From: Acidimicrobiales bacterium
GTDB taxonomy: Bacteria > Actinomycetota > Acidimicrobiia > Acidimicrobiales > Aldehydirespiratoraceae
Assembly (NCBI GenBank): GCA_029263175.1
Contig: JAJCXZ010000099.1
Span: 1-64,000 of the forward strand
DNA length: 64,000 nt
Direction: 5' to 3'
Shown here: positions 24,321-56,094 of the stretch, one piece after another
Layout: every line of letters starts with the position of its first letter
How positions within the stretch are numbered: the first letter of the stretch is position 1
Made by a program: the position numbers and the translations under genes
Notes under the pieces: model-generated
What the model was told of the DNA's origin: nothing
The model's database searches: none
What the model saw: only the letters and a program-made list of their open reading frames with translations

Positions 24321-24347
24321 CAGAACGCCCCGTGGCCCCCCGTTCTG
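24321..24347. repeat. 7-bp stem hairpin abutting palindrome copy 1
   Basis: CAGAACG and CGTTCTG flank a 13-base C-rich loop. The structure shares its last base with the 49-bp palindrome that begins at 24347. It may be a separate terminator or a remnant of a further palindromic unit. Confidence 0.4.
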
Positions 24348-24395
24348 AACTCGTGCAACGTCGTTGTGCTTCTCGTGATGGCGTTGCACGAGTTC
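24347..24395 (-). repeat. 49-bp palindrome, copy 1
   Basis: Arms of 14 bases (GAACTCGTGCAACG and its complement) flank a 21-base centre. Read on the minus strand it matches copy 3 (56046-56094) at 45 of 49 positions, including the asymmetric centre with CACGAGAAG. It starts eight bases after the stop codon of the AbiEi/DUF559 gene and lies upstream of the tpa regulatory region. It could be a REP-like element, a nuclease target or a bidirectional terminator. Confidence 0.9.
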
Positions 24396-24403
24396 GGAGG
24401 TCG

Positions 24404-25354
24404 TCAGGCCGTGCGACGGTGTGCGAGCAACAGGGCGAGGGCGTTTAGCTGCGCCACGACATCGGACGGACGGCTGAAGACGTCTGCATCGGTAAACGTT
24501 GCGACGGTGAACCCCTCAGCCTCGAGAGCCAAGTGTCGCTGCTCATCGCGCCTGAGATCTGTCAACGAGCCATGGTGCAGCAGCGTTCCGACCTCGACGA
24601 CAAGCCGATGGGACCGATCAAGGAAGTCCACGCGCCCAAGCCATGTCTCACCAGCTCCGACGTCGACCTGGCAGGTGAATCTCAGAGACGCGATCTGACC
24701 GGCCAGCTGGAAGAACCGTCGCTCAAGCCCGGATTCGAACGGCACCGGACTGGCGCGTCGCTCCTGCGCAATCTCGCGCATGATCGCACTGCCCGTTCGC
24801 CCTCGAATCGCAAGACGATCGACTGTCACGCCGAGACGTTCCACCGTCACGAGACGCCGAGCCAGGCAGGTGTCCACCAGCTGGGCGATCCGGTCATTTC
24901 TCCGGATTCGACCGGCGAGGTCGAAAAGGGTCCGCTCGGGGGTAGTGACCGGCAGGTCGAGAACGCTGGTCGTGTGCATCGGCGACAGGTCGAGTGGCTG
25001 AGCAACATTGCCGAGTTGCGCCGATGATCGGCGGGGGCGACACCGCCGCCCCGTGACCATTGCGGGCAGGAGCTCGAAGCCGGGCAGGTCCCAGAGTGCC
25101 GCGGCCGACTCGTGGGACACGACCGCCCCCCGGCCGGCGTCGAGAACCGCCGCCATCAGCTCGGCGTGCGGTGTCTCAGGGGCACCCGCAATCCGCAGCA
25201 CCGAGGGGCTCAGGCGAATCAGTCGACCGTTGTTGACGCGCCAGTTGACCTGGCTGCTCGAGAGGCCGTCGGCCCGCAGCTGCTGGTGGGTTACCAGTCC
25301 GTGCTGTGCGGCCGCCAGGCGCTCAATGACTTCGTTCGATGGACGTTCTCTCAT
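24404..25354 (-). CDS. AbiEi-type N-terminal domain fused to a DUF559 (Vsr-like) nuclease domain
   Basis: Product of 316 residues. The first 60 residues (AAAQHGLVTHQQLRADGLSSSQVNWRVNNGRLIRL) form the winged-helix AbiEi antitoxin-type domain. The middle (TPHAELMAAVLDAGRGAVVSHESAAALWDLPGF) is normal for these proteins. The C-terminal 110 residues resemble DUF559, with ESGLERRFFQL, a GRVDFLDRSHRLVVEV core that could supply the D...ExE/ExV metal site, and a final Val-Val-Asn-like helix. The ATG at 25354 gives MRERPSNEVIERL. No AbiEii toxin gene is next to it. It lies between two copies of a 49-bp palindrome, so it may be a mobile cassette rather than a toxin-antitoxin system. Activity is not established. 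Confidence 0.82.
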   Translation of the reverse strand: MRERPSNEVIERLAAAQHGLVTHQQLRADGLSSSQVNWRVNNGRLIRLSPSVLRIAGAPETPHAELMAAVLDAGRGAVVSHESAAALWDLPGFELLPAMVTGRRCRPRRSSAQLGNVAQPLDLSPMHTTSVLDLPVTTPERTLFDLAGRIRRNDRIAQLVDTCLARRLVTVERLGVTVDRLAIRGRTGSAIMREIAQERRASPVPFESGLERRFFQLAGQIASLRFTCQVDVGAGETWLGRVDFLDRSHRLVVEVGTLLHHGSLTDLRRDEQRHLALEAEGFTVATFTDADVFSRPSDVVAQLNALALLLAHRRTA

Positions 25355-25396
25355 CCATCGATCGTTCCACCCGGGTGTGACAGACAGAGGTCCGTT

Positions 25397-25445
25397 GTAC
25401 TCGTGCACTCTCGTCACGAGAGGGAGGACGAGGTTGCACGAGTTG
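25397..25445 (+). repeat. 49-bp palindrome, copy 2 (degenerate)
   Basis: Aligns without gaps to copy 3 on the plus strand with 38 of 49 identical positions. Its outer arms are reduced to 9 bases (ACTCGTGCA/TGCACGAGT), and an inner CTCTCGT-C-ACGAGAG palindrome is present. It begins one base after the pheT stop codon (minus strand) and lies upstream of the AbiEi/DUF559 gene. Confidence 0.85.
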
Positions 25446-31951: not shown

Positions 31952-31992
31952 CTCTAACGCACGCTGGGGTCTGTCCCCAGCGTGCGTTAGAG
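31952..31992. terminator. 18-bp perfect hairpin between convergent genes
   Basis: CTCTAACGCACGCTGGGG, a five-base loop and its exact complement lie between the DUF1844 gene (ends 31950) and azlD (ends 31987). The right arm contains the azlD stop codon. The symmetry and the position suggest a bidirectional terminator, though no U tract follows on either strand. Palindromes of this length could also be repeated elsewhere in the genome. Confidence 0.65.
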
Positions 31993-56045: not shown

Positions 56046-56094
56046 GAACTCGTGCAACGTCGTCACGAGAAGAGCAACGACGTTGCACGAGTTC
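56046..56094 (+). repeat. 49-bp palindrome, copy 3 (solitary, most perfect)
   Basis: Two exact 18-base arms (GAACTCGTGCAACGTCGT and its complement) flank a 13-base centre. It starts one base after the stop codon of the GNAT gene on the minus strand, the same one-base offset as copy 2 has to pheT. No nuclease gene is adjacent. It also separates the efp-nusB-GNAT unit from the pyr promoter and could act as a terminator, but no U tract follows. Confidence 0.92.

Follow-up and report, generated by a model that had tools for sequence, protein, structure and literature searches.

A nuclease-like gene enclosed by palindromes

The window analysed here, a 64,000-nucleotide stretch of an Acidimicrobiales genome, contains a gene whose product combines an AbiEi domain with a DUF559 domain. 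Its neighbors are pheT and a class-III aminotransferase gene, and each of its ends is bordered by a copy of the same 49-bp palindrome:

24404-25354, minus strand: AbiEi/DUF559 gene, 316-aa protein, ATG at 25354
24347-24395: palindrome copy, 49 bp, 8 bases past the stop codon of the AbiEi/DUF559 gene
25397-25445: palindrome copy, 49 bp (45-bp core 25399-25443), 42 bases before the ATG and 1 base past the pheT stop
25374-25382, minus strand: promoter box TGTCACACC, with exactly 19 bases between it and the ATG of the window gene
56046-56094: solo palindrome copy of the same 49-bp family, intergenic

A preliminary description had reported this gene-flanking layout, with coordinates that proved exact on re-check, and a third copy 31 kb away, which is indeed present at 56046-56094. 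All three window palindromes fold far better than their shuffles (z -4.8 to -7.4). The copies at 24347 and 56046 are 91% alike when aligned in inverted register, and the two that flank the gene are ~71% alike to each other. The window also holds a perfect hairpin with an 18-bp stem, CTCTAACGCACGCTGGGG-TCTGT-CCCCAGCGTGCGTTAGAG (31952-31992), which sits beside a stop codon and lies outside the 49-bp family.

The only families that match the window protein are AbiEi and DUF559 (AbiEi_4 and DUF559 domain matches), in keeping with the AbiEi and Vsr/DUF559 domains first assigned to it, and the predicted folds agree. A confident AlphaFold2 model (pLDDT 90) presents residues 1-200 as an AbiEi-type winged helix with the AbiEi C-terminal fold; the S. 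agalactiae AbiEi structure (6y8q) aligns with residues 2-200 of the model at Z 12.6 (175 residues, rmsd 3.8). Residues 206-312 are predicted to adopt the fold of Vsr-like nucleases (3hrl, Z 14.1; Vsr, Z 12.2), including that of the homing endonuclease I-Bth0305I (3r3p; Z 13.7, 96 residues, rmsd 2.1), an assignment also reached by a profile search against solved structures. Within the putative nuclease domain, D243, H261 and D270 are invariant among 32 diverse members, and E254 and R273 are nearly so. The Y1 HUH tyrosine transposase domain is absent from the window protein, whose fold is AbiEi plus Vsr-like.

PADLOC and Pfam label the window protein AbiEi, and members of the family are usually annotated as orphan antitoxins or as unknown. 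These labels favor a lone antitoxin, or a remnant of type IV AbiE defense, beside which the repeats are incidental. Against this stand the adjacent genes, which are pheT and the class-III aminotransferase only and include no AbiEii nucleotidyltransferase toxin, just as the preliminary description had claimed, as well as the additional conserved nuclease domain and the repeat pairing itself. We regard this reading as highly improbable.

Matched palindromes at the ends of homologous genes

Homologues of the window gene occur in 85 of 149 sampled Actinomycetota genomes, with up to 17 per genome. Contigs were scanned with a profile from an 8-row alignment, a 32-row alignment being too diverse for scanning; the window protein as a single query retrieved no relative from the contigs. 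At 57% of 105 homologous loci, the repeat at one end of the gene matches that at the other (score at least 20), a count that includes related loci, is uncorrected for kinship and used wider flank windows than the hairpin count below. When ends from different loci are paired, 0 of 1249 reach a score of 20. About 40% of the homologous loci are without a matching pair at the sensitivity used. Strong hairpins are found in 57% of the 5′ flanks and 26% of the 3′ flanks, versus 1.5% of 788 other windows. A gene-level control over 355 genes from the window and sampled DNA of the finished relative G010 replaced a neighbor-gene control within small loci, which had yielded just 9 genes. Two of the 355 score at least 25, and both are AbiEi/DUF559 genes; one further gene reaches 20.5. 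The window gene itself scored 14.5 in this control because the gene caller had chosen an earlier start. The same pattern is seen elsewhere in the phylum and on named Acidimicrobiales contigs, at 32 of 49 further loci, a number that includes some loci already counted. Chance does not account for the association of the gene with palindromes, which is found again at the majority of homologous loci, each lineage having palindromes of its own.

Most of the flanking repeats are 35-60-bp palindromes; some repeats run into the gene end, and several loci bear tandem doublets at both ends. Stems are wholly different between lineages; a foot such as GTTCTGG..CCAGAAC is common to many. The conserved foot is GAACTCGTGC in the window family and GTTCTGG-like in others. 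The preliminary description had looked to paralogues repeatedly flanked by one palindrome: the flanking holds at most homologous loci, but the palindrome differs, each paralogue having its own. Similarity between proteins is correlated with similarity between their palindromes (Mantel r 0.34, 0 of 2000 permutations), a correlation that comes from pairs whose proteins are more than about 75-80% identical; in less similar pairs the palindromes show no similarity.

Dispersed copies and their genomic placement

The repeat unit of the window family is GAACTCGTGCA-N27-TGCACGAGTTC. The pattern ACTCGTGCA..TGCACGAGT has 22 matches in the 4.4-Mb genome, all of 45 bp with exact 9-base ends, while the reversed control pattern has none. 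With mismatches allowed, the genome holds about 25 copies, and not the hundreds of unlinked sites that would have spoken against the preliminary description. Elsewhere, one copy is present in the congener G002, and an exact-end pattern search found none in the congeners G001 and G003 or in 57 further relatives; G003 retains two degenerate relics. A solo palindrome (L148:1572-1620 and L159:1607-1655) is retained in G002 with what are apparently the same neighbor genes. G002 is without a homologue of the gene, as expected of a remnant but equally of an independent element.

Approximate gene calls place 22 of the 25 copies in intergenic DNA, often a few bases from a stop codon, and the others within called ORFs (two) or at a contig end (one). 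Ten sit between convergent genes, and solo copies are found mainly at the 3′ ends of genes, not at promoters. Ordinary metabolic genes lie between two 49-bp copies in the window genome (L142, L143). The idea that genes between palindromes are cargo was rejected, the genes at C87 and C102 being ordinary (a short-chain dehydrogenase, an acetyl-CoA hydrolase domain protein and a formate/nitrite transporter); the palindromes around them seem simply to occupy intergenic positions. Strict base-pair covariation among the 25 copies was likewise set aside: the copies show mixed left and right halves, because of which pairs 12-14 are often broken, and no conservation of structure is claimed.

A position past stop codons for many solo copies, and between convergent genes for 10 of 25, is what ordinary bidirectional terminators, or generic intergenic hairpins that adjoin the gene by chance, would also show. 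However, the flanks of the 25 copies hold no T run, the feature of intrinsic terminators, and no known RNA family matches. Moreover, ends match within a locus and not across loci, and other genes called in the sampled DNA are without such pairs. We assign only a slight probability to terminators or chance hairpins.

Dispersal is not peculiar to the window family. In G010, four of five AbiEi/DUF559 genes have their own scattered palindrome family, the fourth family being assigned via the 3′ flank of L241. The palindrome that flanks one of these genes (L082) has 18 copies in G010, 13 in G036, which holds the orthologous gene, 2 in G027 and none in the congeners G017, G022 and G032; genome copy numbers were taken for two palindrome families only. 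In 400 kb of G010 surveyed for hairpins, 12 of the 21 strong ones belong to families that flank AbiEi/DUF559 genes, a share biased upward because part of the sample was picked for its proximity to known genes or copies. In the first 100 kb, which was taken without selection, there are two strong hairpins, both in the family that flanks another of its AbiEi/DUF559 genes. A further strong palindrome family, GTATTGCGACATGCGACAG-like, is common to congeners (L184, G010:2370806-2370856; L324:161-216 in G027), and no AbiEi/DUF559 partner was identified for it.

Orthologous positions afford a glimpse of turnover. At one point between convergent genes, and at this one site, G010 has an L082-family palindrome, G032 has its own L046-family palindrome and G017 has none. 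A second orthologous site is simply empty, with no palindrome in G032, G017 or G022. At two orthologous points, the copies of G036 and G010 need one partner reversed to align well. The family swap, the reversed copies and the mixed halves hint that palindromes may be broken and repaired.

Fixed sites with fast-diverging genes

Three sites (S1-S3) recur in four to seven species each, and two of the three span genera; flank identity is 75-96%. The genes there keep their place from species to species, but the protein and its palindromes diverge quickly; no protein domain clearly stands out as the fastest changing. At S1 in G010 and G036, the flanks are 96% and 87% identical, the proteins 53% identical and the palindromes different; other orthologous pairs of the family in these genomes have DNA identities of 83-87%, two of them 83-86%. 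Either block replacement or very fast change would give this pattern. Matches of the protein family to plasmids number three, all partial, and there are none to phages.

In its location the window copy is an exception to the rule of fixed sites. In G033, the same aminotransferase gene comes immediately after pheT, and no AbiEi/DUF559 gene or palindrome lies between them, in a sequence too diverged to define a site; in five other relatives, pheT is followed by different genes. The gene is not conserved here in relatives; such conservation would have spoken against the preliminary description. Because the pheT site differs in relatives, the window copy is lineage-specific, and the gene either entered or was lost there. 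The single palindrome that an empty pheT-aminotransferase site had been expected to retain is missing from G033. Target-site duplications and clean insertion junctions are unreadable, the nearest genomes being only 75-95% identical. The proposed mobile cassette is supported in part, by the non-random link of gene and palindrome, the dispersal of the palindromes and the absence of the gene at pheT in relatives; frequent hopping is not supported, the genes being fixed at S1-S3.

The S1 pattern also brings in the main rival to the mechanism proposed below. A homing-type selfish gene would cut the matching site, bearing a different palindrome, in incoming or partner DNA, and repair would swap the whole palindrome-gene-palindrome block, with solo palindromes as by-products. 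The Vsr-like fold in common with I-Bth0305I and the drop in identity from the flanks of S1 to its proteins and palindromes, set beside the other orthologous pairs, are both congenial to this. Nevertheless, homing alone leaves about 20 solo palindromes per genome unexplained, the sole recognizable gene-free site (G033, at pheT) holds no palindrome, and rapid divergence without exchange could also produce the S1 pattern. Homing-type replacement as the principal explanation is therefore unlikely in our estimate, although it could operate alongside a nuclease that acts on its own palindromes.

A shared promoter box

The exact box TGTCACACC is found upstream of 29 of 107 homologues, against 0.3 expected, and the ATG mostly follows 19 or 20 bases on. 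In G010, the arrangement TGTCACACC-N19-ATG is likewise found ahead of uvrB and of a gene of DUF222/HNH type (L176:9333 and L182:7741). The presence of the box before both AbiEi/DUF559 genes and uvrB suggests DNA-damage control, and it may be this order's damage box. In mycobacteria, PafBC activates most damage-induced genes through the RecA-NDp promoter motif (PMC6789036). We infer that TGTCACACC is the equivalent of that motif.

The box also bears on the possibility that the palindromes are dispersed operators, bound by an AbiEi-like regulator that controls itself and other genes, with the nuclease domain secondary. AbiEi is a DNA-binding autoregulator, the N-terminal half of the protein has the predicted AbiEi antitoxin fold, and a palindrome lies upstream of most of these genes, all of which suit such a role. 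Less easily accommodated are the palindrome after the gene, the preference of solo copies for 3′ gene ends, the conserved nuclease core and the occupation of the promoter position by a different box, TGTCACACC. Dispersed operators are, on this balance, quite improbable, if less so than terminators or a lone antitoxin.

A nuclease that may act on its own palindromes

The explanation that we favor, and consider probable to a modest degree, is a REPtron-like, two-part repeat system with an unrelated enzyme, a nuclease that would work on palindromes of its own family. One part would be the resident gene, encoding the DNA-binding AbiEi winged helix and the Vsr-like nuclease, and probably switched on by DNA damage. 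The other would be a private family of 35-60-bp palindromes, with one or two at each gene end and about 20 solo copies, mostly just past stop codons. The protein would recognize its own palindrome as a duplex, a cruciform or a single-strand hairpin, and would then nick or cut there, mainly after DNA damage. Repair of the break would copy, flip or overwrite palindromes, such that the family spreads slowly, changing jointly with the protein, and solo copies persist where they are tolerated.

If palindrome upkeep is indeed its role, a large orphan family would gain a function, and many actinobacterial palindromic repeats a source. The system would likewise offer a second, enzymatically unrelated REP-like example in which to study the joint change of a nuclease and its dispersed sites. 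The palindromes would also be a concrete substrate to test for DUF559 proteins.

Comparison with known systems

A literature search, largely outside subscription journals, found nothing that joins DUF559 or AbiEi to palindromic repeats. The protein resembles the Vsr mismatch endonuclease and DUF559 proteins in its nuclease fold and conserved D/E/H/D/R core, and differs from them in domain architecture and in the link to palindromes. I-Bth0305I, of the Vsr-like EDxHD homing endonucleases, has the same catalytic-domain fold, but the window gene lies outside any intron or intein, is fused to an AbiEi winged helix, and is bounded by palindromes that also occur as solo copies. With type IV AbiE systems it has in common the N-terminal 200 residues, which match AbiEi of S. 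agalactiae, whereas it is without an adjacent AbiEii toxin and carries a nuclease domain.

The closest parallel in layout, as the preliminary description had noted, is with REP-RAYT systems, which have been described with HUH transposases (PMC3733652, PMC8049555). In both, a resident gene has palindromes at its ends and single copies of them scattered elsewhere, copies often lie by stop codons or between convergent genes and sometimes form doublets, and the gene occupies fixed sites and is rarely on plasmids (PMC3733652, PMC8049555). Here, however, an AbiEi/Vsr-like nuclease takes the place of the HUH tyrosine transposase of RAYT, the palindromes are longer, and the GTAG tag is absent (neither GTAG nor CGTC appears in the aligned copies). 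Copies number about 20 here versus tens to hundreds, and the stems here change between related species. The layout is REPtron-like, but membership among REPtrons fails on enzyme and tag. More tentatively, and with somewhat less than even confidence, these elements may constitute a separate palindrome-propagating class of Actinomycetota, independent of HUH transposases, in which a damage-induced AbiEi/Vsr-like nuclease would spread and overwrite its own palindromes through break repair and so co-diversify with them.
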